Source: Siphonodentalium dalli
Lineage: Eukaryota > Mollusca > Scaphopoda > Gadilida > Siphonodentaliidae
Length of the DNA stretch: 64,000 bases
Assembly: GCA_032622095.1 (NCBI GenBank)
Contig: CP136064.1
Coordinates: 255,295,863 to 255,359,862 of the forward strand
Reading direction: 5' to 3'
Each line of letters opens with the position of its first letter. The first letter of the stretch is position 1. Position numbers and translations under genes: made by a program. The notes below the pieces were generated by a model. The model saw only the letters and a program-made list of their open reading frames with translations, did not search any database and had not been told where the DNA came from. This document shows, one piece after another, positions 10,095-64,000 of the stretch.

Positions 10095-10476
10095 GTACGG
10101 ACGGACGAGGAGTGATGACAAAAGCTCCACTGGAGAATTCATCTCAGGTGAGTCAAAAAGAGGAATAACTTTGGTGAAAATTGGCGGGCGCAAGCCAAAT
10201 TCTAACTTAACCTGTATTTTGTGCTAGTAGACCCGCATACATGCAAGGCTCAAAATAAGTGGCCGGTCATTTTGAGCCTTGCATATATGACGACTTGACC
10301 AATAACATAAAAAGCCGTTTTTCTCCAAATGGTCATATAAAAACAATTGAAGATGGGTTATCTCTTTAAATAACAAATTTTAAATAATCAATATGAACTG
10401 AAGACCCCTGTCCGGAAAGGCTTCCATCATTTAATATTGATTTTATTTCAAATATATTTACTGGGCCGTTTATTTG
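10095..10476 (-). repeat. 382-bp inverted repeat, right arm
   Basis: Reverse complement of 3197-3578. A short frame over the left part (10,027-10,227) is an accidental translation of this repeat and recurs in truncated form on the minus strand of the left arm. A more diverged relative, in the opposite orientation, lies at about 10,731-10,850 ('GCATTTCCGGGCAGG' against 'GCCTTTCCGGACAGG'). Confidence 0.85.
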
Positions 10477-10497
10477 TCTATTTTTAGAACAGACCAG

Positions 10498-10570
10498 TCG
10501 GGTGATACCATATAGCGATAGAGCATTAGACTGTTCCTATGACTACGTATCGAGATTCAAACATCTCAGA
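10498..10570 (+). repeat. tRNA-derived sequence (tRNA pseudogene or SINE head)
   Basis: 'GATAGAGCATTAGACTG' resembles a tRNA D-arm to anticodon-arm stretch (box A). About 30 bases further on, 'GAGATTCAAACATCTC' forms a T-arm-like stem-loop with a box-B-like GATTCAAAC. The box A to box B spacing fits a tRNA. I could not build a convincing acceptor stem, so a functional tRNA is unlikely. A tRNA-derived SINE head or pseudogene is more probable. Confidence 0.45.
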
Positions 10571-11774
10571 TTGATTTGTTGTATTGTTTTATTCCATAGT
10601 TATAAGCGATAATAGGTATAATTAATGTTTATTTGTGACAAAATTACGTAATAAAATTTATGGTCTCTGTTAACAGTAACTACTATTGTTTGTTAGCTAA
10701 ACAACCACACTTTTTTATACCAGAAAATATTCAAAATAAAATAAATATTAATAGATAGGAGCATTTCCGGGCAGGAGTTTTCAACTCAGATCTAATATTT
10801 TATACCCCAGGAACTATATGTTTACAAAGAGATAATCCACCTTTAAAATCAAAATACAGATAATGTCAATTCACAACATTCCACACAGAAATCTAGCAAC
10901 AGTGGTTGGTGGGAGGAGAATGGCAATATTAAATTTCAAAATTTGAAACCACAGTTAAACAACTACAATTTGAATTACTAACATAAAGGTGGTGTATATT
11001 TGTTGGAATAGCTTTTCTTAAATAGATGTTCTTTGGTTGTCAGTGATAAAATTATTTTATCTGCAGAAAATGTCATCACAAAACAAAAAAGTGACACATT
11101 TTAGTCAAGAAAGGTATGTTCTTCCTCTAGGTCGGTTCCTTGTGTGGAGAAGCTCCCCACCCCTCCTCCCACCATTTGATACATGTAGCTACAAAGAGCC
11201 CACCCTCCCAAAAGGCGGTGCATTTTATGGTAACCCAGCATCACAATTCTTTGTAATATAACTCAAGCCATCCATTGATGCCACAATAGCAAGCGCCGCA
11301 ACCTACTATTGTCCAAGGGTTTGATGATGGATGGTGGCTCTCAAGTTACAAGGAGCTTTTTGTGCCTACACCGGTCTCCTTGTTAAAACAGAGGCTGATC
11401 ACAATAATTGTTTTTTCCCTATATCTGTCATATTAAAACATAGGCTGTTCAGATGGATTTTCCCCCTATATCAGTAACGTTAAAACATAGGCTGGTTGAC
11501 ATGCAGCTCTGGTTTGTACCACTAAAATAATTTTGGTTCAGTTCATTAAAACAAATTCCCCTCATCTTGAATCCGGGCTTGGGACCGGCAGACTTATGTC
11601 AGGCAGACTTAGAATTTTTTTTATACATGTACATGATTAAGAAGACACTGATCATTGTTTTCATAATGTTTAAATGTTGATTCAGCTAACAAATCTTCAA
11701 AAACTAATTAGTTATTCAATAAATAATACATACAACTATACATTCTGAATGTGCAACACCTACTACACACACTT
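10571..11774 (+). other. Non-coding flank downstream of the Helentron ORF
   Basis: AT-rich and without a supported gene. It includes the diverged repeat relative at about 10,731-10,850. Around 11,390-11,500 there are two or three similar segments containing 'AAAACAKAGGCTG' ('TTAAAACAGAGGCTGATC', 'TTAAAACATAGGCTGTTC', 'TTAAAACATAGGCTGGTT'), a short degenerate tandem repeat. The Helentron 3' terminus should lie within this stretch, but I could not identify it. Confidence 0.4.
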
Positions 11775-42018: not shown

Positions 42019-42136
42019 CCACATCCAAATTTCAGGGTTTTTCATCATAATTTAATTTGTAAAATCCGACTCGCGTGCATAACGCACACGATAGAAAGGC
42101 ATATGATGGGTTGAATTTTGTGGCAGTATCTTCAAT

Positions 42137-45100
42137 ATGCAATCGAATGTAGTATTTATATCCATATATATTCCTCCTGCGAACTCGACTTTCTGGGCTC
42201 ATAGTAGCAATTACGATTCCGTGTACGACAGCATTGAAACACTTTTAAAAGATTGTAAGTCGGACGACTTTGTTATCTTGGGAGGGGATTTTAACTCGAG
42301 AACAGCGAAACGGCCGGATTATGTTACAGACGATTGCGATAGGTATGGCCCCCTTCCCAATACGTATAAAGTTGATGAAATCGCTGCACGAGAAAGTTTA
42401 GATGATAAAGTAAACCATTTTGGGCGACAACTCCTCTCATTATGTAAAGCTGCGTCACTGCGTATACTCAATGGAAGAACACCCGGCGATTCTTTTGGGA
42501 ACTTTACGAGTTGTCAATATAATGGGTGCAGTGTAGTCGATTATATTATAGTGTCAGAGAAATATCTATCGGACGTGTCCTATTTCTGTGTCAAAAATCC
42601 AAATGAATTTTCAGATCACAGCCAGCTTGCTGTTCACTTAGAATATTTTCAAGAGAGTAGTAATTGTGATAACATGTTTATATATGAATATACTGTACCG
42701 AAATATTCATTGAAATGGACTAAAGATAGTGCAAACAAGGCAATAATGACTGTTAACAGCAAATGTTTCCAAGACGAATTATCGAGGTTAAGAGTATCGC
42801 GTTATGAAGAAACCGCAAATGACACAGAAAAAGCTGTAACTGACTTTACGGAACTTCTTAAAAGATTGAATAAGTCGGCATCCAAAACTGTAAAGAATGG
42901 TAAAATTAAGCAATATAAAAAACGTAGGTGGTTTAATGATAAGTGTAAAACACTAAAATGCATAATGCAAAAAGCTGTGCGCGAAATGAGAGAGCAGCCG
43001 CTGAACAAAAGTTTAATTGAAAAATTTTGCGCAGCCAAAAAAGCATATAAAAGGGAAACTAAATATAGAGCTAAATTATTCCGACACAAATTTGCAATAG
43101 AACTTGAAAACATGGAAACGTCAGATCCGAGTGAATACTGGAAGTTTATTAAAAAAATGAGAGATGATAGTAGGAAAGATAACGACGATCTTGATCCAGA
43201 CATTAGTGTTAAATTCTTTAATGATTTATATTGCAATAGCGCTAATCGGGATAAAGATACTTTTATATGTAAAACAGACAAACCTAAGATCATTTGCGAT
43301 CTCAATAATGATGAAATTTCGACCCTGGAAGTAATAGGCGTTCTGAAGAGTTTGAAAAATAATAAATCTCCAGGCAGTGACGGGCTGCGGAATGAACTAT
43401 TGAAAGCCGTCGGACCGATTATGGCACAAGATTTAACAAAGTTGTTTAATTTGGTTCTGAACTCTTCATATTATCCTACATGTTGGAGCGAGTCCACACT
43501 GACACCTATCTATAAAAAAGGTGATCGTCACGATCCAAACAATTATAGAGCTATAGCTTTGAGCAGTTCTATAAGTAAAATATTTAACAAAATAATCAAT
43601 ACACGAATTTCCAAATTTTTGGATGATAATGATATTATAAGTGATAATCAATATGGATTTAGAAAAAATAGAAGCACGATTGATAGTGCGTTCATTTTAA
43701 AATCGCTAACTACTAAGTACCTGAAAGAGGCAAAACCTCTATATGCAGTATTTGTAGACTTCCGTAAGGCATTTGATACTGTCCACCGAGAGACAATGTT
43801 TACTAAATTGAAACATGTTGGTATCAATGGCAATATTATGAAAACTATTGAATCTATGTATGCGTCAAGTGCTTATTCGGTACGAACTAGCCAAGGTTAT
43901 GGGCCTCATATGATTTCAAATATTGGCGTTAGACAAGGATGTATTATTTCTCCCACAATTTTCAAAATATTTATTGATGACATTAGCGCCGAATTTGATG
44001 ATTCGTGCAAACCGGTTAAAGTTGGCGAAAAATCTCTAAGTCATATGCTATTTGCAGATGATCTGGTTATGCTATCTGAAACTGCTGAAGGTATGCAAAG
44101 ATGTTTGAATAAATTGGAGAATTACAGCATAAGGAACAAAGTAGAAGTGAATCTTCAGAAAACTAAATGCCTGATATTCAGGAAACGAGCAACAAAAAAA
44201 CTAACTGCCTTTAAATTAAGCAACACTCCGTTGGAAACAGTTAAGGAATATACCTATCTTGGTATTAAATTTTGTGCGAATGGAAAATTTTGCAAAGCCC
44301 AGATAGATGTTAACAACAAAGGGTTAAAAGCAATGTATAGTTTAATGTCATCCTTGCGCAAACATGAAATTTTCTCAGTACGCATTTGGTGTAAACTATT
44401 TGACAAGCTGATAAAACCTATCGTTTTATATGGTTGCGAAATATGGGCATCGCATATTAATATTAACAAGCTCGAATCTATTCCATGTGAAATTACACAT
44501 GTTAAATTTTGTAAATCAGTGTTGGGTTTAAATAGAATGGCGTCTAATCACGCGACAAGAGCAGAATTGGGCAGATTTCCGATAGCACATGATGCGATAA
44601 TGAATGCTGTAAGATATATGCTTAAACTGTCTGAAAGAAAACCGAATATGTTACTTCAGAATTCTGCCCAAATATGCGAGGAATATATAATTCCACCGTT
44701 TTTGGCAGAAGCACTTCACATGCCAAAAATAAGCGATTTAGAGAATAACCTATCGCTGGAATATCTCAATAAAGTCCGGGAAGAATTAAAATGCGTTCAT
44801 ATTCTAACGTTCAAAAACGAAATATTCGATGACAACAAGAAAAATGGTATGAATAAATTAAGAACGTATCGTTGTTTCAAAGAACAATATGAAATTGAAC
44901 CATACTTACTCCAAATTACTAATTTTTATACGAGATCGTGTTTCAGTAAGCTTAGAGTAAGCAATCATAAGTTGCAGGTAGAGGTTGGGCGACACGCTCA
45001 GCCAAAAATACCTTACGAGAAACGCATATGTAAAAAATGTGAAGCAAATGAAATTGAAACGGAAGAACACTTTATAATGAGATGTGAAAAACATAACCAT

Positions 45101-45256
45101 TTGCGGAAGAGATTTTTCACTGAAATAGGAGTTCACCAACCAATTTTCGTAAACTTTGATGAAATAGAAAAGTTCATATTCCTCATGAAGGCTGAACACC
45201 CGAGTATATGCAATCTGATCTGTAACATGGTTCGGCAGTTTTCCGCAAATAAATGA
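42137..45256 (+). CDS. LINE ORF: partial APE endonuclease, reverse transcriptase, CCHC
   Basis: 1039 codons, no stops. Residues 1-175 are the C-terminal half of an APE-type endonuclease: Asp51/Asn53 in 'GGDFNS' and Asp160/His161 in 'FSDHSQ'. A Lys-rich linker follows. The reverse transcriptase domain is at about 400-700: 'SPGSDGL' (about 412), 'VDFRKAFD' with Asp541, 'GVRQGCIISP', and the catalytic 'FADD' with Asp641/Asp642. The C-terminal region has a zinc knuckle-like Cys965-x2-Cys968-x9-His978-x4-Cys983. It would copy its own RNA at a nicked chromosomal site. The start Met is only the first ATG in this frame; the true protein began upstream in a frame now shifted. The intact RT suggests a young copy, yet the broken endonuclease makes it probably immobile by itself. 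Confidence 0.93.
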   Translation: MQSNVVFISIYIPPANSTFWAHSSNYDSVYDSIETLLKDCKSDDFVILGGDFNSRTAKRPDYVTDDCDRYGPLPNTYKVDEIAARESLDDKVNHFGRQLLSLCKAASLRILNGRTPGDSFGNFTSCQYNGCSVVDYIIVSEKYLSDVSYFCVKNPNEFSDHSQLAVHLEYFQESSNCDNMFIYEYTVPKYSLKWTKDSANKAIMTVNSKCFQDELSRLRVSRYEETANDTEKAVTDFTELLKRLNKSASKTVKNGKIKQYKKRRWFNDKCKTLKCIMQKAVREMREQPLNKSLIEKFCAAKKAYKRETKYRAKLFRHKFAIELENMETSDPSEYWKFIKKMRDDSRKDNDDLDPDISVKFFNDLYCNSANRDKDTFICKTDKPKIICDLNNDEISTLEVIGVLKSLKNNKSPGSDGLRNELLKAVGPIMAQDLTKLFNLVLNSSYYPTCWSESTLTPIYKKGDRHDPNNYRAIALSSSISKIFNKIINTRISKFLDDNDIISDNQYGFRKNRSTIDSAFILKSLTTKYLKEAKPLYAVFVDFRKAFDTVHRETMFTKLKHVGINGNIMKTIESMYASSAYSVRTSQGYGPHMISNIGVRQGCIISPTIFKIFIDDISAEFDDSCKPVKVGEKSLSHMLFADDLVMLSETAEGMQRCLNKLENYSIRNKVEVNLQKTKCLIFRKRATKKLTAFKLSNTPLETVKEYTYLGIKFCANGKFCKAQIDVNNKGLKAMYSLMSSLRKHEIFSVRIWCKLFDKLIKPIVLYGCEIWASHININKLESIPCEITHVKFCKSVLGLNRMASNHATRAELGRFPIAHDAIMNAVRYMLKLSERKPNMLLQNSAQICEEYIIPPFLAEALHMPKISDLENNLSLEYLNKVREELKCVHILTFKNEIFDDNKKNGMNKLRTYRCFKEQYEIEPYLLQITNFYTRSCFSKLRVSNHKLQVEVGRHAQPKIPYEKRICKKCEANEIETEEHFIMRCEKHNHLRKRFFTEIGVHQPIFVNFDEIEKFIFLMKAEHPSICNLICNMVRQFSANK

Positions 45257-45380
45257 GAATATAGTGTTGAGTTACAAATACATGTTATATATATATTTTA
45301 TATGAAATTGTCTTGACTTGTGTTTAAATTATCTGTATTATGACAACTGCCCCGCGTGGGTGTATTATGTCAATAAAAAA

Positions 45381-45419: not shown

Positions 45420-48355
45420 AAACTAGTTACGTATCTCTACCATACGCTTTAAGGAATTTATCTGATTTTGAACAGTACAATGTTTAATTGGATTTGAAAT
45501 AGACCCCCCCCCCCCTCAAAATTTCACAATCCGACAATGATTTGGTTCAATGATAGGCGGATCCATGTCCCTTTCAGTACTTTTTGGGAGTTTGAGTCGA
45601 ATTCCTATTAGAGAAACTTCCATCACCTCGATTGTGTTATTTGAACATTAAATGTCCACCCATATGCACAAAATTGATGATTTTCATAAAGTTTCGCCTC
45701 CAGAAAAAGTTGAAGTTCCGGCGACAGAGGGTTAATAAATGTCTCGCATAATCTGAAATGATTCGGTAGGGCGTAAAAATACCATAGCTCAACAAAACGA
45801 GACAGTCTTTGTTTATCAGTGCTTCTAAATTCGCTGCCTTGAACGATATTTGAAAAATGTGAATTTTCTGCCTATATAATTCAAGAAGCGTAACTCTATA
45901 TTATTAGTTGCTTGTAACCTATAGGGTCTCCGTTGGGGGTGTCCACCTTGGGAAATTCCAATTGCACCCCCCCCCCCCTGAATCAGAATCACAGTCCAAA
46001 CACAAGTTTTGCATAATTCCATTTGCACCACCCCCCTTGAATTAGAATCACAGACCAAACACAAGTTTTGCATAATTCCATTTGCACCCCCTTGCACATC
46101 AGTCCTCAGGCCTAATATCATATGCATTCATAAACTATGTTGTTCTATATGCCCGGTATAAGAAAATTCAGATCTATACTTTAACCTGAGAATTGCATAA
46201 ATCCTAACATCTAGTAGCCTACTCCAGACAAATGCACACGGCTGCGGGTAAGAGACGAGGACATTGTGTCCGTCCATGTTTGTTCAGCCCGGTGTGAGAA
46301 AATTTGGAAAACTATACAAGAAAATCGCAAATCCTAGTATCTAGACTGGCCTCAACTGAAGCTTCCCTAGTGTTGGAAATTTCAAACCTCATTCTCCATC
46401 TTAGGTTGGAAAATTCTCCAACTGATGACCATTTCAATCCACAAGTTGGACTGAATGTACTAAACTATTGTTTTGTTAAACTAATTAGCAGTTTTGTATT
46501 GGAAATTTTAAAGATGTAGAATATCGAATTAGTTGATGTATTGCTCGCCCCGGGCCAACTCGGTCGAAGGGATATAATGTCTTTATATTTAAGTTTTCTT
46601 TGGTGTCTTTTTGCTCGCCGCTCCTCTCGGTGCATTCTTCTTCAAATATAATGAAGCAGACTTCTTTGGGAATGCTCTAGGTCGACGGCTAGGACGTTTT
46701 GGGATGATTAAAAGTCAAACTGCGATCTGGAGGCTGAGTCCCGTAAAATGTGTAGATCCATGTCCAGCATGAGTATGGCGTTAAACATGGTATGGGACTC
46801 TAGCCTACATAAGGGAGTTGCCCGGCAATAACAAGTAAGCAAGAACATCGGGGATAGCATAAGAAAACAGTCCTATATAAGACCATATACCGGAACACAC
46901 CCATACGCCTCCTACCATCACAAACCAATGGATTAAAAATTATTATTGACTGATGTGGGCTGTGATATGATGCATCTAGACATACGGACATTATAAGGTC
47001 GCAGCATGAGAAGGAGCTTGGTATTGCATGACCAATTATATCATTGCAACATGACAAATATACTGTGAACTGTGACGTACATGCCCACACCCCTCCCATC
47101 TCCTGCCCACATCCCTTGCATACCCATCCCCAAAATCGTTATAGTTGTCGCACATCATTGCACCACCTGTAAATGTATATACACAGCAACTTTAAATAAT
47201 ATTAATGTAAAATATTGGTATAAGGGTCCTGCCCTCATCTGCCATCATAAGCCCATGCAGTGTTTGTGGGGTCCTGTTGTATATAAAATGTTATTATTCG
47301 ATCATATCAAACACAACTTATTGAACTTGAACTTATCTATATCGCGATGTTCTGTAAACTCTGAGGTGTTTTATAATAACTAATAAACTGTCATGATATT
47401 GAATCATTTGGGGAATGATATATGTGCATGGCAGCTTATACCTACACATTCCATGTACAATTCGCTTAATTTTGGTGTGATTCATATTCTTGAATACATG
47501 CAGGTGGTGAATTAGTAGGCGCGTTAAGACATATTTGTGTATATTTTCCGATTAGCGGACGAACGAACGACGACGTTATCTGACTCTTCGTAAGTTATAA
47601 CACTTTGCATTACGTCTCGTCCAATTAATACGAAATATGCAATCGACGATCTTAACAATCAGATATAAAGTCATATATGTTCACTCGTGATACATACAGA
47701 TGATAAAGAGACAGTTTTTAAATGGTCATATCTGAATTCAACAAACCTATGCTATATACCAGATGGGAAACCAATACCAAACCGCAGATAGTCACGTTCC
47801 GAAATTATGATACCAAAATTATCAACTTAGGGGCGGAAGGTTGGGGTATGGGACGGTATGCGCTGACACTCATTCATTCAATTTAAAAATATCATATATT
47901 AAAATGGTTTACGGGCACGCGAACGGATAGAAAATAGTTTCAATTCAATTGAGAACTGCAAGCGAAAGTCCGCGCATAAGACGGATTGTGCTTTATGAAA
48001 ATGTGGTCCATGCCGAGAAGTCTTATAACATTATACGGCTGACACCACAGTTTCGTTCATTTTCAAATATAAAAGTCGAGAATTTTTTTTGTAAAAAATG
48101 GGCGTTTTAAAAAAAGTGAAAACAAAACGAACTACTATTCTAAAACTAATGAATTTTGAGCGTTTTTGGACTCAAAATATGTCAATTTTAAGCCGCACCG
48201 CGATAAAACCGCAGAATCACGACCGGCTGACAAGACAGACAGCCGACATAGAGTGATTACCCATTAGCCAATATAACAATTAACGCAGTGCGCCGAACAG
48301 GAATGGATGTTGAAATAATTATATCGCCAGTGGTCATTGGTGGAATTTTTAAAAT
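45420..48355 (+). other. Unannotated stretch before the satellite
   Basis: No supported gene. It contains C runs (about 45,505 and 45,968), a tandem repeat of about 60 bp with 2.3 copies at 45,954-46,095 ('AATTCCA.TTGCACC', 'AAACACAAGTTTTGCATAAT') and otherwise AT-rich DNA with only short frames on both strands. Confidence 0.45.
45954..46095 (+). repeat. Minisatellite, period ~60 bp
   Basis: Units begin at about 45,954, 46,015 and 46,074 (the last partial). Length differences lie in the C run. A minus-strand 100-codon frame across it is merely a translation of the repeat. Confidence 0.8.
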
Positions 48356-51300
48356 TCAAAATTTCCTGGTTTGGTCTTCTGTCTATGTTTAAGACGCTCA
48401 CATAGACCAAATCCAGCTGTTGCGCTTCGTCTAGGAGAAGATCTGGGCACAAGCACTTTCTACACATGGACTTTATTAGTACATTTTTTGATGTGTTATA
48501 ACTTGGCCATTTCTCAACCGATTTACAAAATTCTTTCACGAGTAGCATCAGAACGTCCTATAGATACACGACAGTAAAAATGGTTGGAATCGGTGACAAG
48601 AAAAAAATTGACAAATTTTGCACCCCTCCCCAGGTCAACAAATTGTTTTCGGACCTTGGTGAAAATTCCCCCGATTTGTACCCTTTCGTTAGTTAACACG
48701 ATTACGAGAACCGAATTCAGCTGCTTTGCTTTTTATAGGAGAAGATCTGGCCACAAACATTTTCCAAAAAAAAATTGTAAGGGGCATAACTCTGGAAAGC
48801 AAGTTGGGACATAAAACTAAATGCTTCGATTCCATGTAGCTTGGCAAGGTGCGTATACCTACTAAATTTCAATGTTCCACCTTTTAAACTTTCTGAGATA
48901 TAAGGGTTACAAAATATATTAAGAAGCATAATAATAATAGGAAAAATAAAAAATTGAATAACAATATACTTCCATATTAAAATATGGAAGTATAATAAGG
49001 GAATCGCGCGGAATTGATTGGAATGTCGATAGTATGGTTTATTGACATTTCTGTGTTCAGTTGGAACGTTCTGTTGTGACCCCCACCGATGCCTCGAAAT
49101 TTGACGACGCGGGTAGAAAATTCGCCATATATCGGCCAATTTTCGAGATAACGAGCTAATTTTTGCGTAATTGTGTTCGTATTTGATGCCCCTTTAATAT
49201 TTAGCAGGGTTCTGGTGAGGTATTGTGGCGATATTTTACTATGTAGGCCAATATGTATGTTGTTCAGTACATACTTTTCGAATATCTCTGGCCTCCATCG
49301 ACATATTACGGCAAGTGTGTAATCGTTTAGAAGTACTAACAATTCCCCATCGAATGACACCAAATACGTGACGATTGGTTGAAGGAATTTAAATTCATAG
49401 TGCATTTTCTGTAAACTTGAAGAAAAGGAAGGGGCCACAATTTCTACATTTGTCAACCGATTCATAAAATTCACTCATAATGACACTCAGTACATCTTAT
49501 AGATACCTCACAACCATTTTGGTTCAAATCGGCGACAAAAAAAAATTGACAAATTTTGCCCCTCCCCTAGCCCCGAAAAATTTGAGCGGACCTTTGTCAA
49601 AATTTCCTGGTTTGGTCTTCTGTCTATGTTTAAGACGCTCACATAGACCAAATCCAGCTGTTGCGCTTCGTCTAGGAGAAGATCTGGGCACAAGCACTTT
49701 CTACACATGGACTTTATTAGTACATTTTTTGATGTGTTATAACTTGGCCATTTCTCAACCGATTTACAAAATTCTTTCACGAGTAGCATCAGAACGTCCT
49801 ATAGATACACGACAGTAAAAATGGTTGGAATCGGTGACAAGAAAAAAATTGACAAATTTTGCACCCCTCCCCAGGTCAACAAATTGTTTTCGGACCTTGG
49901 TGAAAATTCCCCCGATTTGTACCCTTTCGTTAGTTAACACGATTACGAGAACCGAATTCAGCTGCTTTGCTTTTTATAGGAGAAGATCTGGCCACAAACA
50001 TTTTCCAAAAAAAAATTGTAAGGGGCATAACTCTGGAAAGCAAGTTGGGACATAAAACTAAATGCTTCGATTCCATGTAGCTTGGCAAGGTGCGTATACC
50101 TACTAAATTTCAATGTTCCACCTTTTAAACTTTCTGAGATATAAGGGTTACAAAATATATTAAGAAGCATAATAATAATAGGAAAAATAAAAAATTGAAT
50201 AACAATATACTTCCATATTAAAATATGGAAGTATAATAAGGGAATCGCGCGGAATTGATTGGAATGTCGATAGTATGGTTTATTGACATTTCTGTGTTCA
50301 GTTGGAACGTTCTGTTGTGACCCCCACCGATGCCTCGAAATTTGACGACGCGGGTAGAAAATTCGCCATATATCGGCCAATTTTCGAGATAACGAGCTAA
50401 TTTTTGCGTAATTGTGTTCGTATTTGATGCCCCTTTAATATTTAGCAGGGTTCTGGTGAGGTATTGTGGCGATATTTTACTATGTAGGCCAATATGTATG
50501 TTGTTCAGTACATACTTTTCGAATATCTCTGGCCTCCATCGACATATTACGGCAAGTGTGTAATCGTTTAGAAGTACTAACAATTCCCCATCGAATGACA
50601 CCAAATACGTGACGATTGGTTGAAGGAATTTAAATTCATAGTGCATTTTCTGTAAACTTGAAGAAAAGGAAGGGGCCACAATTTCTACATTTGTCAACCG
50701 ATTCATAAAATTCACTCATAATGACACTCAGTACATCTTATAGATACCTCACAACCATTTTGGTTCAAATCGGCGACAAAAAAAAATTGACAAATTTTGC
50801 CCCTCCCCTAGCCCCGAAAAATTTGAGCGGACCTTTGTCAAAATTTCCTGGTTTGGTCTTCTGTCTATGTTTAAGACGCTCACATAGACCAAATCCAGCT
50901 GTTGCGCTTCGTCTAGGAGAAGATCTGGGCACAAGCACTTTCTACACATGGACTTTATTAGTACATTTTTTGATGTGTTATAACTTGGCCATTTCTCAAC
51001 CGATTTACAAAATTCTTTCACGAGTAGCATCAGAACGTCCTATAGATACACGACAGTAAAAATGGTTGGAATCGGTGACAAGAAAAAAATTGACAAATTT
51101 TGCACCCCTCCCCAGGTCAACAAATTGTTTTCGGACCTTGGTGAAAATTCCCCCGATTTGTACCCTTTCGTTAGTTAACACGATTACGAGAACCGAATTC
51201 AGCTGCTTTGCTTTTTATAGGAGAAGATCTGGCCACAAACATTTTCCAAAAAAAAATTGTAAGGGGCATAACTCTGGAAAGCAAGTTGGGACATAAAACT

Positions 51301-54300
51301 AAATGCTTCGATTCCATGTAGCTTGGCAAGGTGCGTATACCTACTAAATTTCAATGTTCCACCTTTTAAACTTTCTGAGATATAAGGGTTACAAAATATA
51401 TTAAGAAGCATAATAATAATAGGAAAAATAAAAAATTGAATAACAATATACTTCCATATTAAAATATGGAAGTATAATAAGGGAATCGCGCGGAATTGAT
51501 TGGAATGTCGATAGTATGGTTTATTGACATTTCTGTGTTCAGTTGGAACGTTCTGTTGTGACCCCCACCGATGCCTCGAAATTTGACGACGCGGGTAGAA
51601 AATTCGCCATATATCGGCCAATTTTCGAGATAACGAGCTAATTTTTGCGTAATTGTGTTCGTATTTGATGCCCCTTTAATATTTAGCAGGGTTCTGGTGA
51701 GGTATTGTGGCGATATTTTACTATGTAGGCCAATATGTATGTTGTTCAGTACATACTTTTCGAATATCTCTGGCCTCCATCGACATATTACGGCAAGTGT
51801 GTAATCGTTTAGAAGTACTAACAATTCCCCATCGAATGACACCAAATACGTGACGATTGGTTGAAGGAATTTAAATTCATAGTGCATTTTCTGTAAACTT
51901 GAAGAAAAGGAAGGGGCCACAATTTCTACATTTGTCAACCGATTCATAAAATTCACTCATAATGACACTCAGTACATCTTATAGATACCTCACAACCATT
52001 TTGGTTCAAATCGGCGACAAAAAAAAATTGACAAATTTTGCCCCTCCCCTAGCCCCGAAAAATTTGAGCGGACCTTTGTCAAAATTTCCTGGTTTGGTCT
52101 TCTGTCTATGTTTAAGACGCTCACATAGACCAAATCCAGCTGTTGCGCTTCGTCTAGGAGAAGATCTGGGCACAAGCACTTTCTACACATGGACTTTATT
52201 AGTACATTTTTTGATGTGTTATAACTTGGCCATTTCTCAACCGATTTACAAAATTCTTTCACGAGTAGCATCAGAACGTCCTATAGATACACGACAGTAA
52301 AAATGGTTGGAATCGGTGACAAGAAAAAAATTGACAAATTTTGCACCCCTCCCCAGGTCAACAAATTGTTTTCGGACCTTGGTGAAAATTCCCCCGATTT
52401 GTACCCTTTCGTTAGTTAACACGATTACGAGAACCGAATTCAGCTGCTTTGCTTTTTATAGGAGAAGATCTGGCCACAAACATTTTCCAAAAAAAAATTG
52501 TAAGGGGCATAACTCTGGAAAGCAAGTTGGGACATAAAACTAAATGCTTCGATTCCATGTAGCTTGGCAAGGTGCGTATACCTACTAAATTTCAATGTTC
52601 CACCTTTTAAACTTTCTGAGATATAAGGGTTACAAAATATATTAAGAAGCATAATAATAATAGGAAAAATAAAAAATTGAATAACAATATACTTCCATAT
52701 TAAAATATGGAAGTATAATAAGGGAATCGCGCGGAATTGATTGGAATGTCGATAGTATGGTTTATTGACATTTCTGTGTTCAGTTGGAACGTTCTGTTGT
52801 GACCCCCACCGATGCCTCGAAATTTGACGACGCGGGTAGAAAATTCGCCATATATCGGCCAATTTTCGAGATAACGAGCTAATTTTTGCGTAATTGTGTT
52901 CGTATTTGATGCCCCTTTAATATTTAGCAGGGTTCTGGTGAGGTATTGTGGCGATATTTTACTATGTAGGCCAATATGTATGTTGTTCAGTACATACTTT
53001 TCGAATATCTCTGGCCTCCATCGACATATTACGGCAAGTGTGTAATCGTTTAGAAGTACTAACAATTCCCCATCGAATGACACCAAATACGTGACGATTG
53101 GTTGAAGGAATTTAAATTCATAGTGCATTTTCTGTAAACTTGAAGAAAAGGAAGGGGCCACAATTTCTACATTTGTCAACCGATTCATAAAATTCACTCA
53201 TAATGACACTCAGTACATCTTATAGATACCTCACAACCATTTTGGTTCAAATCGGCGACAAAAAAAAATTGACAAATTTTGCCCCTCCCCTAGCCCCGAA
53301 AAATTTGAGCGGACCTTTGTCAAAATTTCCTGGTTTGGTCTTCTGTCTATGTTTAAGACGCTCACATAGACCAAATCCAGCTGTTGCGCTTCGTCTAGGA
53401 GAAGATCTGGGCACAAGCACTTTCTACACATGGACTTTATTAGTACATTTTTTGATGTGTTATAACTTGGCCATTTCTCAACCGATTTACAAAATTCTTT
53501 CACGAGTAGCATCAGAACGTCCTATAGATACACGACAGTAAAAATGGTTGGAATCGGTGACAAGAAAAAAATTGACAAATTTTGCACCCCTCCCCAGGTC
53601 AACAAATTGTTTTCGGACCTTGGTGAAAATTCCCCCGATTTGTACCCTTTCGTTAGTTAACACGATTACGAGAACCGAATTCAGCTGCTTTGCTTTTTAT
53701 AGGAGAAGATCTGGCCACAAACATTTTCCAAAAAAAAATTGTAAGGGGCATAACTCTGGAAAGCAAGTTGGGACATAAAACTAAATGCTTCGATTCCATG
53801 TAGCTTGGCAAGGTGCGTATACCTACTAAATTTCAATGTTCCACCTTTTAAACTTTCTGAGATATAAGGGTTACAAAATATATTAAGAAGCATAATAATA
53901 ATAGGAAAAATAAAAAATTGAATAACAATATACTTCCATATTAAAATATGGAAGTATAATAAGGGAATCGCGCGGAATTGATTGGAATGTCGATAGTATG
54001 GTTTATTGACATTTCTGTGTTCAGTTGGAACGTTCTGTTGTGACCCCCACCGATGCCTCGAAATTTGACGACGCGGGTAGAAAATTCGCCATATATCGGC
54101 CAATTTTCGAGATAACGAGCTAATTTTTGCGTAATTGTGTTCGTATTTGATGCCCCTTTAATATTTAGCAGGGTTCTGGTGAGGTATTGTGGCGATATTT
54201 TACTATGTAGGCCAATATGTATGTTGTTCAGTACATACTTTTCGAATATCTCTGGCCTCCATCGACATATTACGGCAAGTGTGTAATCGTTTAGAAGTAC

Positions 54301-57300
54301 TAACAATTCCCCATCGAATGACACCAAATACGTGACGATTGGTTGAAGGAATTTAAATTCATAGTGCATTTTCTGTAAACTTGAAGAAAAGGAAGGGGCC
54401 ACAATTTCTACATTTGTCAACCGATTCATAAAATTCACTCATAATGACACTCAGTACATCTTATAGATACCTCACAACCATTTTGGTTCAAATCGGCGAC
54501 AAAAAAAAATTGACAAATTTTGCCCCTCCCCTAGCCCCGAAAAATTTGAGCGGACCTTTGTCAAAATTTCCTGGTTTGGTCTTCTGTCTATGTTTAAGAC
54601 GCTCACATAGACCAAATCCAGCTGTTGCGCTTCGTCTAGGAGAAGATCTGGGCACAAGCACTTTCTACACATGGACTTTATTAGTACATTTTTTGATGTG
54701 TTATAACTTGGCCATTTCTCAACCGATTTACAAAATTCTTTCACGAGTAGCATCAGAACGTCCTATAGATACACGACAGTAAAAATGGTTGGAATCGGTG
54801 ACAAGAAAAAAATTGACAAATTTTGCACCCCTCCCCAGGTCAACAAATTGTTTTCGGACCTTGGTGAAAATTCCCCCGATTTGTACCCTTTCGTTAGTTA
54901 ACACGATTACGAGAACCGAATTCAGCTGCTTTGCTTTTTATAGGAGAAGATCTGGCCACAAACATTTTCCAAAAAAAAATTGTAAGGGGCATAACTCTGG
55001 AAAGCAAGTTGGGACATAAAACTAAATGCTTCGATTCCATGTAGCTTGGCAAGGTGCGTATACCTACTAAATTTCAATGTTCCACCTTTTAAACTTTCTG
55101 AGATATAAGGGTTACAAAATATATTAAGAAGCATAATAATAATAGGAAAAATAAAAAATTGAATAACAATATACTTCCATATTAAAATATGGAAGTATAA
55201 TAAGGGAATCGCGCGGAATTGATTGGAATGTCGATAGTATGGTTTATTGACATTTCTGTGTTCAGTTGGAACGTTCTGTTGTGACCCCCACCGATGCCTC
55301 GAAATTTGACGACGCGGGTAGAAAATTCGCCATATATCGGCCAATTTTCGAGATAACGAGCTAATTTTTGCGTAATTGTGTTCGTATTTGATGCCCCTTT
55401 AATATTTAGCAGGGTTCTGGTGAGGTATTGTGGCGATATTTTACTATGTAGGCCAATATGTATGTTGTTCAGTACATACTTTTCGAATATCTCTGGCCTC
55501 CATCGACATATTACGGCAAGTGTGTAATCGTTTAGAAGTACTAACAATTCCCCATCGAATGACACCAAATACGTGACGATTGGTTGAAGGAATTTAAATT
55601 CATAGTGCATTTTCTGTAAACTTGAAGAAAAGGAAGGGGCCACAATTTCTACATTTGTCAACCGATTCATAAAATTCACTCATAATGACACTCAGTACAT
55701 CTTATAGATACCTCACAACCATTTTGGTTCAAATCGGCGACAAAAAAAAATTGACAAATTTTGCCCCTCCCCTAGCCCCGAAAAATTTGAGCGGACCTTT
55801 GTCAAAATTTCCTGGTTTGGTCTTCTGTCTATGTTTAAGACGCTCACATAGACCAAATCCAGCTGTTGCGCTTCGTCTAGGAGAAGATCTGGGCACAAGC
55901 ACTTTCTACACATGGACTTTATTAGTACATTTTTTGATGTGTTATAACTTGGCCATTTCTCAACCGATTTACAAAATTCTTTCACGAGTAGCATCAGAAC
56001 GTCCTATAGATACACGACAGTAAAAATGGTTGGAATCGGTGACAAGAAAAAAATTGACAAATTTTGCACCCCTCCCCAGGTCAACAAATTGTTTTCGGAC
56101 CTTGGTGAAAATTCCCCCGATTTGTACCCTTTCGTTAGTTAACACGATTACGAGAACCGAATTCAGCTGCTTTGCTTTTTATAGGAGAAGATCTGGCCAC
56201 AAACATTTTCCAAAAAAAAATTGTAAGGGGCATAACTCTGGAAAGCAAGTTGGGACATAAAACTAAATGCTTCGATTCCATGTAGCTTGGCAAGGTGCGT
56301 ATACCTACTAAATTTCAATGTTCCACCTTTTAAACTTTCTGAGATATAAGGGTTACAAAATATATTAAGAAGCATAATAATAATAGGAAAAATAAAAAAT
56401 TGAATAACAATATACTTCCATATTAAAATATGGAAGTATAATAAGGGAATCGCGCGGAATTGATTGGAATGTCGATAGTATGGTTTATTGACATTTCTGT
56501 GTTCAGTTGGAACGTTCTGTTGTGACCCCCACCGATGCCTCGAAATTTGACGACGCGGGTAGAAAATTCGCCATATATCGGCCAATTTTCGAGATAACGA
56601 GCTAATTTTTGCGTAATTGTGTTCGTATTTGATGCCCCTTTAATATTTAGCAGGGTTCTGGTGAGGTATTGTGGCGATATTTTACTATGTAGGCCAATAT
56701 GTATGTTGTTCAGTACATACTTTTCGAATATCTCTGGCCTCCATCGACATATTACGGCAAGTGTGTAATCGTTTAGAAGTACTAACAATTCCCCATCGAA
56801 TGACACCAAATACGTGACGATTGGTTGAAGGAATTTAAATTCATAGTGCATTTTCTGTAAACTTGAAGAAAAGGAAGGGGCCACAATTTCTACATTTGTC
56901 AACCGATTCATAAAATTCACTCATAATGACACTCAGTACATCTTATAGATACCTCACAACCATTTTGGTTCAAATCGGCGACAAAAAAAAATTGACAAAT
57001 TTTGCCCCTCCCCTAGCCCCGAAAAATTTGAGCGGACCTTTGTCAAAATTTCCTGGTTTGGTCTTCTGTCTATGTTTAAGACGCTCACATAGACCAAATC
57101 CAGCTGTTGCGCTTCGTCTAGGAGAAGATCTGGGCACAAGCACTTTCTACACATGGACTTTATTAGTACATTTTTTGATGTGTTATAACTTGGCCATTTC
57201 TCAACCGATTTACAAAATTCTTTCACGAGTAGCATCAGAACGTCCTATAGATACACGACAGTAAAAATGGTTGGAATCGGTGACAAGAAAAAAATTGACA

Positions 57301-60167
57301 AATTTTGCACCCCTCCCCAGGTCAACAAATTGTTTTCGGACCTTGGTGAAAATTCCCCCGATTTGTACCCTTTCGTTAGTTAACACGATTACGAGAACCG
57401 AATTCAGCTGCTTTGCTTTTTATAGGAGAAGATCTGGCCACAAACATTTTCCAAAAAAAAATTGTAAGGGGCATAACTCTGGAAAGCAAGTTGGGACATA
57501 AAACTAAATGCTTCGATTCCATGTAGCTTGGCAAGGTGCGTATACCTACTAAATTTCAATGTTCCACCTTTTAAACTTTCTGAGATATAAGGGTTACAAA
57601 ATATATTAAGAAGCATAATAATAATAGGAAAAATAAAAAATTGAATAACAATATACTTCCATATTAAAATATGGAAGTATAATAAGGGAATCGCGCGGAA
57701 TTGATTGGAATGTCGATAGTATGGTTTATTGACATTTCTGTGTTCAGTTGGAACGTTCTGTTGTGACCCCCACCGATGCCTCGAAATTTGACGACGCGGG
57801 TAGAAAATTCGCCATATATCGGCCAATTTTCGAGATAACGAGCTAATTTTTGCGTAATTGTGTTCGTATTTGATGCCCCTTTAATATTTAGCAGGGTTCT
57901 GGTGAGGTATTGTGGCGATATTTTACTATGTAGGCCAATATGTATGTTGTTCAGTACATACTTTTCGAATATCTCTGGCCTCCATCGACATATTACGGCA
58001 AGTGTGTAATCGTTTAGAAGTACTAACAATTCCCCATCGAATGACACCAAATACGTGACGATTGGTTGAAGGAATTTAAATTCATAGTGCATTTTCTGTA
58101 AACTTGAAGAAAAGGAAGGGGCCACAATTTCTACATTTGTCAACCGATTCATAAAATTCACTCATAATGACACTCAGTACATCTTATAGATACCTCACAA
58201 CCATTTTGGTTCAAATCGGCGACAAAAAAAAATTGACAAATTTTGCCCCTCCCCTAGCCCCGAAAAATTTGAGCGGACCTTTGTCAAAATTTCCTGGTTT
58301 GGTCTTCTGTCTATGTTTAAGACGCTCACATAGACCAAATCCAGCTGTTGCGCTTCGTCTAGGAGAAGATCTGGGCACAAGCACTTTCTACACATGGACT
58401 TTATTAGTACATTTTTTGATGTGTTATAACTTGGCCATTTCTCAACCGATTTACAAAATTCTTTCACGAGTAGCATCAGAACGTCCTATAGATACACGAC
58501 AGTAAAAATGGTTGGAATCGGTGACAAGAAAAAAATTGACAAATTTTGCACCCCTCCCCAGGTCAACAAATTGTTTTCGGACCTTGGTGAAAATTCCCCC
58601 GATTTGTACCCTTTCGTTAGTTAACACGATTACGAGAACCGAATTCAGCTGCTTTGCTTTTTATAGGAGAAGATCTGGCCACAAACATTTTCCAAAAAAA
58701 AATTGTAAGGGGCATAACTCTGGAAAGCAAGTTGGGACATAAAACTAAATGCTTCGATTCCATGTAGCTTGGCAAGGTGCGTATACCTACTAAATTTCAA
58801 TGTTCCACCTTTTAAACTTTCTGAGATATAAGGGTTACAAAATATATTAAGAAGCATAATAATAATAGGAAAAATAAAAAATTGAATAACAATATACTTC
58901 CATATTAAAATATGGAAGTATAATAAGGGAATCGCGCGGAATTGATTGGAATGTCGATAGTATGGTTTATTGACATTTCTGTGTTCAGTTGGAACGTTCT
59001 GTTGTGACCCCCACCGATGCCTCGAAATTTGACGACGCGGGTAGAAAATTCGCCATATATCGGCCAATTTTCGAGATAACGAGCTAATTTTTGCGTAATT
59101 GTGTTCGTATTTGATGCCCCTTTAATATTTAGCAGGGTTCTGGTGAGGTATTGTGGCGATATTTTACTATGTAGGCCAATATGTATGTTGTTCAGTACAT
59201 ACTTTTCGAATATCTCTGGCCTCCATCGACATATTACGGCAAGTGTGTAATCGTTTAGAAGTACTAACAATTCCCCATCGAATGACACCAAATACGTGAC
59301 GATTGGTTGAAGGAATTTAAATTCATAGTGCATTTTCTGTAAACTTGAAGAAAAGGAAGGGGCCACAATTTCTACATTTGTCAACCGATTCATAAAATTC
59401 ACTCATAATGACACTCAGTACATCTTATAGATACCTCACAACCATTTTGGTTCAAATCGGCGACAAAAAAAAATTGACAAATTTTGCCCCTCCCCTAGCC
59501 CCGAAAAATTTGAGCGGACCTTTGTCAAAATTTCCTTGTTTGGTCTTCTGTCTATGTTTAAGACGCTCACATAGACCAAATCCAGCTGTTGCGCTTCGTC
59601 TAGGAGAAGATCTGGGCACAAGCACTTTCTACACATGGACTTTATTAGTACATTTTTTGATGTGTTATAACTTGGCCATTTCTCAACCGATTTACAAAAT
59701 TCTTTCACGAGTAGCATCAGAACGTCCTATAGATACACGACAGTAAAAATGGTTGGAATCGGTGACAAGAAAAAAATTGACAAATTTTGCACCCCTCCCC
59801 AGGTCAACAAATTGTTTTCGGACCTTGGTGAAAATTCCCCCGATTTGTACCCTTTCGTTAGTTAACACGATTACGAGAACCGAATTCAGCTGCTTTGCTT
59901 TTTATAGGAGAAGATCTGGCCACAAACATTTTCCAAAAAAAAATTGTAAGGGGCATAACTCTGGAAAGCAAGTTGGGACATAAAACTAAATGCTTCGATT
60001 CCATGTAGCTTGGCAAGGTGCGTATACCTACTAAATTTCAATGTTCCACCTTTTAAACTTTCTGAGATATAAGGGTTACAAAATATATTAAGAAGCATAA
60101 TAATAATAGGAAAAATAAAAAATTGAATAACAATATACTTCCATATTAAAATATGGAAGTATAATAA
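48356..60167 (+). repeat. Satellite array: ~9.5 head-to-tail copies of a 1241-bp unit
   Basis: Identical landmarks recur at exactly 1241-bp steps, for example 'ATAATGACACTCAGTACATC' near 49,478, 50,719, 51,960 and so on to 59,406. The only unit-to-unit difference I found is G to T at 59,537. The array starts abruptly inside a unit at 48,356 ('TCAAAATTTCCTGG') and ends at 60,167, just past a unit's hairpin. Within a unit two diverged sub-blocks start 'AAAAAAATTGACAAATTTTG' (about 230-310 bp apart). Repeated frames of 165, 140, 112, 93 and 76 codons overlap on both strands; I do not call them genes. Confidence 0.98.
48965..48994. repeat. 30-bp near-palindrome in each satellite unit
   Basis: 'TATACTTCCATATTA' followed by 'AAATATGGAAGTATA' gives a 14-bp stem with essentially no loop. 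It repeats at 50,206, 51,447, 52,688, 53,929, 55,170, 56,411, 57,652, 58,893 and 60,134. It is always followed by 'ATAA', and at the array end by a longer (TAA)n run. The equivalent hairpin in the neighbouring repeats is 'ATACTTCC.TGGT...ACCA.GGAAGTAT'. Confidence 0.95.
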
Positions 60168-60180
60168 TAATAATAATAAT

Positions 60181-61893
60181 GAAAAATAATCGAAAAAGGG
60201 CCATAACTCTGTCAAAATATATTGGACCAACATCCGGATAGCATTATTTTTAGTAGACCTTAGATGCCTACATTCGCTAGAGATTTCGCGGTCCTCCTCC
60301 CATTAGTTTCTGAGTATTTCCAATTAAACAGAAAACGGCCGCAGTAGAAAAACAATATACTTCCTTGGTTACACCATGGAAGTATAATAATAGGGCAAAT
60401 CATGAGCTCAATAAATCGCAGTTAAGGGACGGAAAATATGAATTAGGATGATTATATCTTTCCCTTAACATGTGTGGGTTGATCTCAAGTGTTTGGGAGT
60501 GACCCCACCCCTGCCTCGAAATTGGGTGACGGGATTGGGAAATAGTCAAACCCGGCCCAAAATGCGAATTTTGAGAGCCCGTAACTCCGTTATTTTCCAA
60601 TGGATTTAAAAATTGTTTTTAGTATTGTGATCAGCTACTTACATTGATTATTTGTTATAAATTTTGTCTGATTCAGAGACGAATAACATTTTGTTTATTG
60701 GAAAGAATACGGGCCCACATTCAAAGTTTGAGGGCCCAAATCTCCGCCATTTTTTAACGGATTTACAATCTGTTTTCAGTTTTATGATCAACGTGTATGG
60801 TATATGTTATATATCAAGTTTCATATGATTCGGAGACGAAATAAATTTTGGTACCCCGGACCACCCCTCCCCTGACCCACAACACTGAACCGACACTGGC
60901 AAAATTTGGCTCATCGCGTGCTCTCTTCAGACCGCACGCATTGGCGTATCAGTTGACATCCAAAGTTTGACATCTTCGGAGGAGATGTGATCACAAGCAT
61001 ATGGGGCCAAATTTGCATTGTTTGAAGGCCCACAACTCTGACATTTTTCAATGGATTTTCGAAATTCTTTCAGTTTCTAGATCGGTTGGCGGTATGGATG
61101 TTATATTCCAAGTTTCATCCGATTCGGAAAAGAATACAAAATTGGTACCCCGGACCACCCCTCCCCTGACCCACAACACTGAACCGACACTGGCAAAATT
61201 TGGCCCATCGCGTGCTCTCTTCAGACCGCACGCACTGGGATATCAGACGACATCCAAAGTTCGACATCTTCGGAGGAGATAGGGTCACAAGCACATGGGA
61301 CCGACACTTGCAAACTTTGAGGGCCCGTAACTCTTGCATTTCTTCTCGGATTACAAAAATCCTTTCCGGTATGGGTTTGTTTTCGTTCAGGGAATCTACA
61401 TACTTAAATAGATGAATGTCAATAATAAAAAAAAATTGCGAAAATATTGCCCCCACCCCAGTGTAAAAATATATGTCCAACCCTGTCAAATTTTCTTCCT
61501 CGGACTAAGCTGACAACGGTCAACACGACTACAAAAACCAAATACAGTTATCTGGAATGATACGGGAGGACAACAGAGTACAATAAAATAGAGGTTTGCC
61601 AACTATGGGCGGTAACTCTTCAGGGAAAGGGCGGACCCAAGTTTTTATGCCCGTGGGCAGTAGTGCATATCGATATGTGCATACGGTCTAATTTTCGATG
61701 CTCTGCTTCTTATAATTTCCGAGATAATAAAATGACATTTTTTCAAATAAAGGGAGATAACTCCTCGGGGAAAACGCGGACAATATTCGTTATGCGACGA
61801 TGGCATACAACTCTTTGATCCCAAGATACGTACCAAGTTTTAGTGTGCTACTCCTGGTACTTTTCGAGTAATAAGGGTTGCAAAAGTGTCCAG

Positions 61894-61926
<33 letters not shown>
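60181..61926 (+). repeat. 2183-bp-spaced repeat, copy 1 (short sub-unit plus long block)
   Basis: Begins with a 212-bp sub-unit (60,181-60,392) that starts 'GAAAAATAATCGAAAAAGGG' and ends with the 'TACTTCCTTGG...GGAAGTATAATA' hairpin. A block of about 1.53 kb follows and ends in (TAA)n at about 61,896-61,926. The long block has an internal 294-bp direct repeat (for example 'GTACCCCGGACCACCCCTCC' at 60,851 and 61,145). Its first part shares 'GTGACCCC.ACC' and 'TGCCTCGAAATT' with the 1241-bp satellite unit. Non-coding. Confidence 0.93.
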
Positions 61927-61928
<2 letters not shown>

Positions 61929-62149
61929 AAAATAATCGAAAAAGGGCCATAACTCTGTCAAAATATATTGGACCAACATCCGGATAGCATTATTTTTAGT
62001 AGACCTTAGATGCCTACATTCGCTAGAGATTTCGCGGTCCTCCTCCCATTAGTTTCTGAGTATTTCCAATTAAACAGAAAACGGCCGCAGTAGAAAAACA
62101 ATATACTTCCTTGGTTACACCATGGAAGTATAATAATAATAATAATAAT
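61927..62149 (+). repeat. ~215-bp hairpin sub-unit, extra tandem copy 1
   Basis: Same sequence as 60,181-60,392, from 'GAAAAATAATCG' to the terminal hairpin, ending in a longer (TAA)n run (to 62,149). Confidence 0.93.
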
Positions 62150-62363
62150 GAAAAATAATCGAAAAAGGGCCATAACTCTGTCAAAATATATTGGACCAAC
62201 ATCCGGATAGCATTATTTTTAGTAGACCTTAGATGCCTACATTCGCTAGAGATTTCGCGGTCCTCCTCCCATTAGTTTCTGAGTATTTCCAATTAAACAG
62301 AAAACGGCCGCAGTAGAAAAACAATATACTTCCTTGGTTACACCATGGAAGTATAATAATAAT
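62150..62363 (+). repeat. ~215-bp hairpin sub-unit, extra tandem copy 2
   Basis: A further identical sub-unit joined through (TAA)n. With 61,927-62,149 and 62,364-62,575 it forms a run of three, whereas copy 1 of the larger repeat has only one. Confidence 0.93.
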
Positions 62364-64000
62364 GAAAAATAATCGAAAAAGGGCCATAACTCTGTCAAAA
62401 TATATTGGACCAACATCCGGATAGCATTATTTTTAGTAGACCTTAGATGCCTACATTCGCTAGAGATTTCGCGGTCCTCCTCCCATTAGTTTCTGAGTAT
62501 TTCCAATTAAACAGAAAACGGCCGCAGTAGAAAAACAATATACTTCCTTGGTTACACCATGGAAGTATAATAATAGGGCAAATCATGAGCTCAATAAATC
62601 GCAGTTAAGGGACGGAAAATATGAATTAGGATGATTATATCTTTCCCTTAACATGTGTGGGTTGATCTCAAGTGTTTGGGAGTGACCCCACCCCTGCCTC
62701 GAAATTGGGTGACGGGATTGGGAAATAGTCAAACCCGGCCCAAAATGCGAATTTTGAGAGCCCGTAACTCAGTTATTTTCCAATGGATTTAAAAATTGTT
62801 TTGAGTATTGTGATCAGCTACTTACATTGATTATTTGTTATAATTTTTGTCTGATTCAGAGACGAATAACATTTTGTTTATTGGAAAGAATACGGGCCCA
62901 CATTCAAAGTTTGAGGGCCCAAATCTCCGCCATTTTTTAACGGATTTACAATCTGTTTTCAGTTTTATGATCAACGTGTATGGTAGATGTTATATATCAA
63001 GTTTCATATGATTCGGAGACGAAATAAATTTTGGTACCCCGGACCACTCCTCCCCTGACCCACAACACTGAACCGACACTGGCAAAATTTGGCTCATCGC
63101 GTGCTCTCTTCAGACCGCACGCATTGGCGTATCAGATGACATCCAAAGTTTGACATATTCGGAGGAGATGTGATCACAAGCATATGGGGCCATATTTGCA
63201 TTGTTTGAAGGCCCACAACTCTGTCATTTTTCAATGGATTTTCGAAATTCTTTCAGTTTCTAGATCGGTTGGCGGTATGGATGTTATATTCCAAGTTTCA
63301 TCCGATTCGGAGAAGAATAAAAAATTGGTACCCCGGACCACCCCTCCCCTGACCCACAACACTGAACCGACACTGGCAAAAGTTGGCCCATCGCGTGCTC
63401 TCTTCAGACCGCACGCATTGGCGTATCAGATGACATCCAAAGTTCTACATCTTCGGAGGAGATGTGCGCACAAGCACATGGGACCAAATTGCAAACTTTG
63501 AGGGCCCGTAACTCTTGCATTTCTTCTCGGATTACAAAAATCCTTTCCGGTATGGGTTTTTTTTCGTTCAGGGAATCTACATACTTAAATAGATGAATGT
63601 CTAATAATAAAAAAAATTGCGAAAATTTTGCCCCCACCCCAGTGTAAAAATATATGGCCAACCCTGTCAAATTTTCTTCTTCGGACTAAGCTGACAACGG
63701 TCAACACGACTACAAAAACCAAATACAGTTATCTGGAATGATACGGGAGGACAACAGAGTACAATAAAATAGAGGTTTGCCAACTATGGGCGGTAACTCT
63801 TCAGGGAAAGCGCGGACACAAGTTTTTATGCCCGTGGGCAGTAGTGCATATCGAGATGTGCATACGGTCTAATTTTCGATGTTCTGCTTCTTATAATTTC
63901 CGAGATAATAAAATGACATTTTTTCAAATAAAGGGAGATAACTCATCGATGAAAGCGCGGACAAAATCGTTATGGGCCATAGGCATAGAACTCATGTACC
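62364..64000 (+). repeat. 2183-bp-spaced repeat, copy 2 (cut by window end)
   Basis: Repeats 60,181-61,817 at an offset of 2183 with scattered substitutions (for example near 62,772, 62,805, 63,048 and 63,186). It is thus clearly more diverged than the 1241-bp satellite units are from each other. It starts with a 212-bp sub-unit (62,364-62,575) ending in the hairpin. Confidence 0.93.

Follow-up and report, generated by a model that had tools for sequence, protein, structure and literature searches.

Non-autonomous partners of Helentrons, the HINE or DINE-1 elements, carry 11-15-bp subterminal inverted repeats, set 2-4 nt in from the 5′ end and, in the HINEs of mites, about 38-60 nt in from the 3′ end; they have a microsatellite close to the 5′ end, internal tandem repeats and a palindrome 8-35 nt from the 3′ end, and insert in TT without target duplication (PMC4067079). 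In the Pacific oyster, some of the related Cg_HINE elements carry two satellite-like arrays (PMC7492417), joined ends have been detected for the Helitron2 elements that include FoHeli of Fusarium (PMC5148889), and tandem Helitrons have been noted in plants and in bats (PMC5876387). These comparisons, like those below, draw on the cited sections of the published descriptions. Here we analysed a 64,000-nt stretch of the Siphonodentalium dalli genome (the window; C4:255295863-255359862), searching an assembly of 2.23 Gb in 9 contigs, and focused on an 11.8-kb satellite array within it that is built from a hairpin-bearing 1,241-bp unit. Our results suggest that this array probably consists of tandem copies of the 5′ part of a minus-strand transposon, a non-autonomous rolling-circle element of the Helitron superfamily whose ends resemble those of Helentrons/HINEs or of Helitron2, with amplification via a circle that had lost its terminator as the most likely mechanism.

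Self-comparison of the window at a lag of 1,241 bp agreed with the original prediction of about 9.5 near-identical head-to-tail copies that differ by one substitution, the sole mismatch across 48356-60167 being G at 58296 against T at 59537, in the last copy. The length and identity of this repeat exclude chance, and the exact copy number is as assembled. The units carry a 28-nt palindrome, ATACTTCCATATTAAAATATGGAAGTAT, with 12-nt arms and a 4-nt loop (30 nt when the flanking T/A pair is counted), of which an exact string search recovered ten perfect copies from 48966 to 60135 at a spacing of 1,241. As had also been predicted, the array begins mid-unit, at position 599 when counting starts at GGGAATC, and ends at the palindrome. 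Adjoining it without a gap are (ATA)n, one B module 210-223 bp long and C units of 1.7-2.2 kb that bear a related hairpin, and this run extends to 67766 in window numbering; A and C units are diverged relatives with similar patches at their start, middle and end. The features of the locus are as follows.

47337-48355, minus strand: left flank, a remnant of an element 3′ half with its CTAG end missing (84-89% identical to the C9, C8 and C1 flanks).
48356-60164, minus strand: A array, half a unit plus nine units of 1,241 bp, each read as the 5′ part of the element (identity at the lag, one mismatch).
48966-48993, minus strand: first of the ten hairpins (exact string search).
50207, 51448, 52689, 53930, 55171, 56412, 57653 and 58894, minus strand: starts of further A hairpins (exact string search).
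60135-60164, minus strand: last hairpin plus AA, taken as the 5′ terminus of the A element, TTATACTTCC... in element orientation (by analogy with the L060 empty site and the nested elements, below).
60165-60387, minus strand: (ATA)n and B module, with a hairpin at 60357-60385 (same arrangement as at elements 2 and 3 on C4).
60393-64000 and on to 67766 beyond the window, minus strand: C units, 2183, 1731 and 1944 bp from start to start, with 1 to 3 B modules each.
61886-61938, minus strand: uninterrupted junction of C body, (ATA)n and B, the in-place counterpart of an empty site.

A known structured RNA was rejected by an Rfam scan of window positions 47300-64000, in which no family reached the gathering threshold, and a coding unit was rejected by a Pfam scan of three open frames (158 and 165 aa in the A unit, 129 aa in the C unit), in which the best E value, 0.094, missed the cut-off. 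Hairpins edged by TATAAT numbered 0 in window positions 1-48000, and mononucleotide shuffles gave a mean of 1.2.

Read in its own orientation, the element begins 5′-TT-ATACTTCC...GGAAGTAT, a 12-13-bp subterminal repeat folded as a hairpin, and continues through (TAT)n, the body, a second subterminal repeat and a palindrome to CTAG-3′. In detail, the 5′ end is 5′-TT-ATACTTCCATAT-TTTA-ATATGGAAGTAT, and (TAT)n follows about 30 nt inward; the 3′ end on the minus strand runs ...GGAAGTATC, palindrome, 6 to 11 nt, CTAG-3′. ATAA abuts CTAGA at six places; in five of them CTAGA leads into a palindrome and GATACTTCCATRT, while the place at 38027 lacks the remaining motif and was left out. We compared five complete elements (elements 2 and 3 on C4, two on C8, and L060), and in all five the 12-13-bp repeat covaries between both ends, being of either the ATAT or the ATGTT type; the inverted repeats lie 2 nt from the 5′ end and, in C4 element 2, 34 nt from the 3′ end. 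Folding predicted a hairpin at each of the five typed 5′ ends and, beside CTAG, at four of five 3′ ends, one of them with a 6-bp stem. The palindromes at the 3′ position comprise several dissimilar sequences among the listed 3′ ends. That CTAG might belong to a separate canonical Helitron was ruled out by the subterminal repeats and by nesting, which make it the element's own 3′ end. A further 3′-end family, CTAGCTTTCAAATTCCATGTGGGAAATTTGGATACTTCCATA, is scattered along C1 and other contigs in our looser 3′ list.

The A units contain the 5′ end and lack the 3′ terminator, that is, the palindrome plus CTAG. In arrays that were read far enough, the terminator is present once, beyond the left flank, and it is missing at the window copy. 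The hairpin, which the original prediction had taken for a terminator, is instead the 5′ start of a minus-strand element; of the ATAA reported to follow it, AA are the last bases of the element, and the next T-A-A belongs to the host or the microsatellite.

The position of the 5′ terminus was set by an empty site. L060 is a solitary element of 1,462 bp that runs CTAG...TATAA inside a dispersed host repeat. When its flanks were joined, all 40 scored candidates matched across the junction (1,080 candidates at first look), and the ten paralogues that we fetched were all contiguous, with no duplication and no loss. In these paralogues AA precedes the junction and is followed by T in eight and C in two, and insertion in the L060 relative, as read from these sequences, is between AA and T without target duplication. 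This empty site defines the 5′ terminus as TTATACTTCC. In addition, AA stands before CTAG in 16 of 16 fetched 3′ ends, which is TT after CTAG in element orientation. Dispersed single copies with hairpin-defined ends, whose absence would have told against the original prediction, are present in the assembly, L060 among them, and its reading of a tandemised, hairpin-ended mobile element holds.

Complete elements also lie inside older copies of the family. We had predicted beforehand that B after the A array would represent what was left of an older C unit cut in (ATA)n, and such a split unit was found at two neighbouring elements: a C unit ending ...GTCCAGTATAATAATAATAATAA is followed by element 2 (67767-73413), TAATAATAATAA, element 3 (73426-81873) and TAATGAAAAATAATCG..., the start of B, and can be compared with the intact C junction from 61886 onward. 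At the window A element, the split unit is preserved on its right side only; by analogy, this element appears to have inserted into (ATA)n of the 5′ module of an older C unit. Among the 16 fetched 3′ ends, a non-random sample with some duplicates, BLAST places 13 next to A, B or C sequence, L086 adjoins a degenerate hairpin as judged by eye, and L085 and L087 are located elsewhere. Insertion of elements in (ATA)n beside the hairpins of other copies is frequent.

Genome-wide, the exact 5′ pattern gave 9,252 matches (4,862 and 4,390), with none for the reversed control, and 2,742 A-unit starts were counted. The 3′ end gave 457 matches (control 1), or 1,511 with a looser pattern (control 47), so that 5′ ends are about 20-fold or about 6-fold more numerous than 3′ ends, according to which 3′ pattern is used, a ratio that is rough given exact patterns of unequal strictness. 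The 5′ pattern continued with A or C after ATAATAA at 478 places; 20 of these were read, of which 15 lead into DNA without family matches and five into further family modules. A base other than T follows TATAA in 266 cases (77 C, 22 A and 1 G among 100 matches listed), and the four C matches that we compared with the 3′ list (C1:288551, C1:5518498, C2:2713286 and C2:93366008) correspond to CTAG ends of nested elements. The fetched loci L051-L070 and L072-L087 are the first matches by coordinate on C1 and include some duplicates.

Related arrays elsewhere share both the boundary and the junction seen here. They start at unit position 594 on C8, 604 on C1 and 596 in a subtelomeric block of C1, so the mid-unit start of the window array, as judged by this recurrence of nearly the same position on C8 and C1, is not arbitrary. 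The C9 array aligns across the same left boundary, left flanks are related at all these arrays, and the C8 flank extends for 3.1 kb and terminates in a palindrome plus CTAG. At the arrays examined, A-unit starts abut the hairpin; the tandem junctions of diverged families (GGGAATC, GGGCAAATC and GGGATTC) adjoin it, all at one and the same unit position. Units in the other arrays measure 1,238-1,253 bp and are 97-98% or 90% identical to the window unit. C9 units are 99.6-99.8% identical to one another, two near-intact C8 units are 99.6% alike, and C8 and C9 units are 99.4% alike; all of these are 97.4-97.8% identical to the window unit. A third C8 unit and a partial C8 unit linked to the flank are about 90-91% like the window unit. 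The flanks of the window array and of the others are only 84-89% alike, and unit histories differ from flank histories, which fits the addition of blocks or conversion. The satellite reaches a block of some 350 kb at one contig end: in the first 350 kb of C1 the listed 5′ matches are all on the minus strand, with the hairpin side facing the contig start, and the start itself (C1:1-1700) lies inside a C/B unit and holds 0 telomere repeats. Among other contig starts, C3:1-1500 opens with CCCTAA repeats (247 in 1.5 kb), and C2:1-1500 and C4:1-1500 hold other tandem repeats that are dissimilar to A, B or C units.

Like HINE or DINE-1 elements, the family has subterminal repeats (12-13 bp in five of five elements), with the 5′ repeat 2 nt from the end, a 3′ palindrome close to the end (6-11 nt before CTAG at five ends), a microsatellite, here (TAT)n, T-rich surroundings and no target duplication (PMC4067079). 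It differs in that the tandem unit includes the 5′ end, whereas the described HINE central repeats are internal, and in that insertion is AA^T (A^TT in element orientation), whereas Helentrons prefer TT (PMC4067079). Cg_HINE is likewise a non-autonomous Helentron with satellite-like arrays, a 5′ repeat, an inverted repeat, a microsatellite and a 3′ palindrome, but its arrays are described as central repeats of elements on all chromosomes (PMC7492417), whereas units here measure 1.24-2.2 kb, include the hairpin end and form the block at a contig end. The proto-Helentron of Phytophthora shares a 5′ TT, a 3′ CTAG, A^T insertion and the lack of target duplication, but is autonomous and about 14 kb long, and its description mentions no satellite (PMC4067079). 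Helitron2 shares with the family terminal inverted repeats that are asymmetric, 12 bp long in FoHeli1/2, and a hairpin at each end, but differs in its other end sequences, in encoding a Rep-helicase and in inserting at TTTT^T/C or TNAT^ (PMC5148889); insertion between TTTT and T or C was seen at none of the 16 fetched 3′ ends or ten empty sites. The 3′ end agrees with that of canonical Helitrons (Helitron1), with CTAG (CTRR), a hairpin 6-11 nt upstream and insertion at A^T in eight of ten cases and A^C in two. Tandem centromeric Helitrons of plants similarly form arrays without 3′ ends, for which a rolling-circle model exists, but they are canonical Helitrons in plants, as opposed to hairpin-ended elements in an animal-type genome (PMC8268682). 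Related satellites are known, the difference here being that each repeat carries the element's own 5′ hairpin; a search of titles and abstracts in the open-licence literature recovered no animal satellite unit with a 5′ hairpin end and no self-nesting in an element's own (ATA)n.

Identity as a non-autonomous Helitron-superfamily element, which follows from the two defined ends, the matching subterminal inverted repeats, insertion without duplication, nesting and the 5′-only units, is very likely; for growth of the array by rolling circle we regard the case as evenly balanced. Helraiser cannot do without its 5′ end but tolerates loss of the 3′ end at a reduced rate; its 3′ hairpin acts as a terminator, and circles form (PMC4778049). 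In the model of Xiong et al. 2016, as recounted in PMC8268682, recombination between repeated 5′ ends strips a circular template of its terminator, and the next round yields a tandem array without 3′ ends, as in plant centromeric Helitrons. Here, a helper Rep-helicase would make circles, recombination between repeated 5′ ends would remove the 3′ terminator, and the short circle would be copied by rolling circle into units arranged head to tail, which would insert at, or be appended to, a pre-existing 5′ end. The anatomy of the array, with 5′ ends and no 3′ ends in its units, is what terminator loss predicts, and replication reading past a terminator, as originally proposed, fits less well with units that lack one. 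Recency or conversion would maintain the identity of the copies; homogeneity is consistent with either, as had been suggested, and does not separate the two.

The strongest competitor, which we place somewhat short of an even chance, has the same transposon units multiplied without a rolling circle, hairpins or (ATA)n tracts serving as the sites of unequal crossing-over, slippage or conversion. In its favour are units that are more alike within than between arrays, the differing histories of units and flanks, and short terminal modules (B and mini-modules of ~37-50 bp) that are themselves tandem with (ATA)n of varying length, as expected from slippage. Junctions that coincide with the 5′ terminus even in diverged families speak against it, as do two C8 units of 97.6-97.8% that sit between units of ~90%, like an incoming block, although conversion could do likewise. 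An expanded or collapsed assembly could explain a single substitution in 11.8 kb, but we consider this improbable as the source of the copy number, given that other arrays retain unit differences (in length, in identity to the window unit and, in C9, among neighbouring units) and that the left flank bounding the array is common to other arrays. A SINE-like sequence mobilised by a LINE, with a 3′ hairpin, an (ATA)n tail and 5′ truncation on the left, would suit a hairpin that adjoins (ATA)n of variable length and an array that begins mid-unit; against this stand the fixed other end (palindrome plus CTAG), the empty site without target duplication and the same unit position at array starts in other loci, which make such an origin scarcely credible. 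A retrotransposon tail as such was rejected, given a CTAG end that is fixed and the empty site.

Several observations count against the terminator-less rolling-circle transposon that we favour. The 5′ end is TT, TTATACTTCC by the empty site, where canonical Helitrons have TC; C replaces T after the junction at two of ten empty sites; and the fifth 3′ end is predicted to fold without a palindrome hairpin, its subterminal repeat pairing instead. The conserved tandem junction could be an old junction retained by unequal crossing-over, and the rolling-circle step is read from anatomy, no circle or transposition event having been observed. Finally, although Helentron open reading frames are present in the genome (of 457 candidates for the PF14214 profile, 150 were scored and yielded 151 matches, among them open reading frames of around 1,600 aa and around 2,500-2,900 aa), none of 45 Rep matches among those listed on C1 and C2 lies within 20 kb of a listed element end, the closest being 37 kb away, and no autonomous helper with these ends was found among the matches listed.

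The window itself contains an open Helentron frame of 2,538 aa (11775-19391, minus strand) with OTU, DUF6570, Helitron_like_N and PIF1 helicase domains and a weak endonuclease match below the cut-off; related frames occur at C8:4875782, C3:184092828 and elsewhere. It was not retained as a candidate helper: no ends could be delimited for it, and its 3′ flank holds a dispersed 500-bp element. This adjoining element (about 10347-10847, ~500 bp) has inverted repeats and dozens of 85-90% matches among 40 scored candidates, and a resemblance of the C4 element 2 flank to the Helentron region falls within the same dispersed element and was likewise discarded. The window Helentron and a close copy on C8, one of three, share a flank, which looks like segmental duplication. 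Elsewhere in the window we noted a LINE frame of 1,049 aa (42107-45256, plus strand; RVT_1, Exo_endo_phos_2) followed by (ATGTT)n at 45380, a direct duplication of 1-3203 and 6623-9825 at 99.9% identity, and a reverse match of 3197-3578 to 10095-10476 at 100%.

Taken together, these results make a route from transposon to satellite readable, with both ends, the empty site and the landing site all visible, together with the part that the tandem unit lacks. We tentatively raise the less probable idea of a self-feeding satellite generator, whose own (ATA)n/hairpin edge is its favourite landing site and whose 5′ end alone suffices for copying. If so, complete copies would nest in older ends, terminator-less circles would roll out identical 5′-end arrays, and blocks of hundreds of kilobases would arise at a chromosome end and inside chromosomes. 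The terminator-loss rolling-circle model becomes testable outside plants, and a satellite hairpin can mark where a mobile element starts, not where it terminates.

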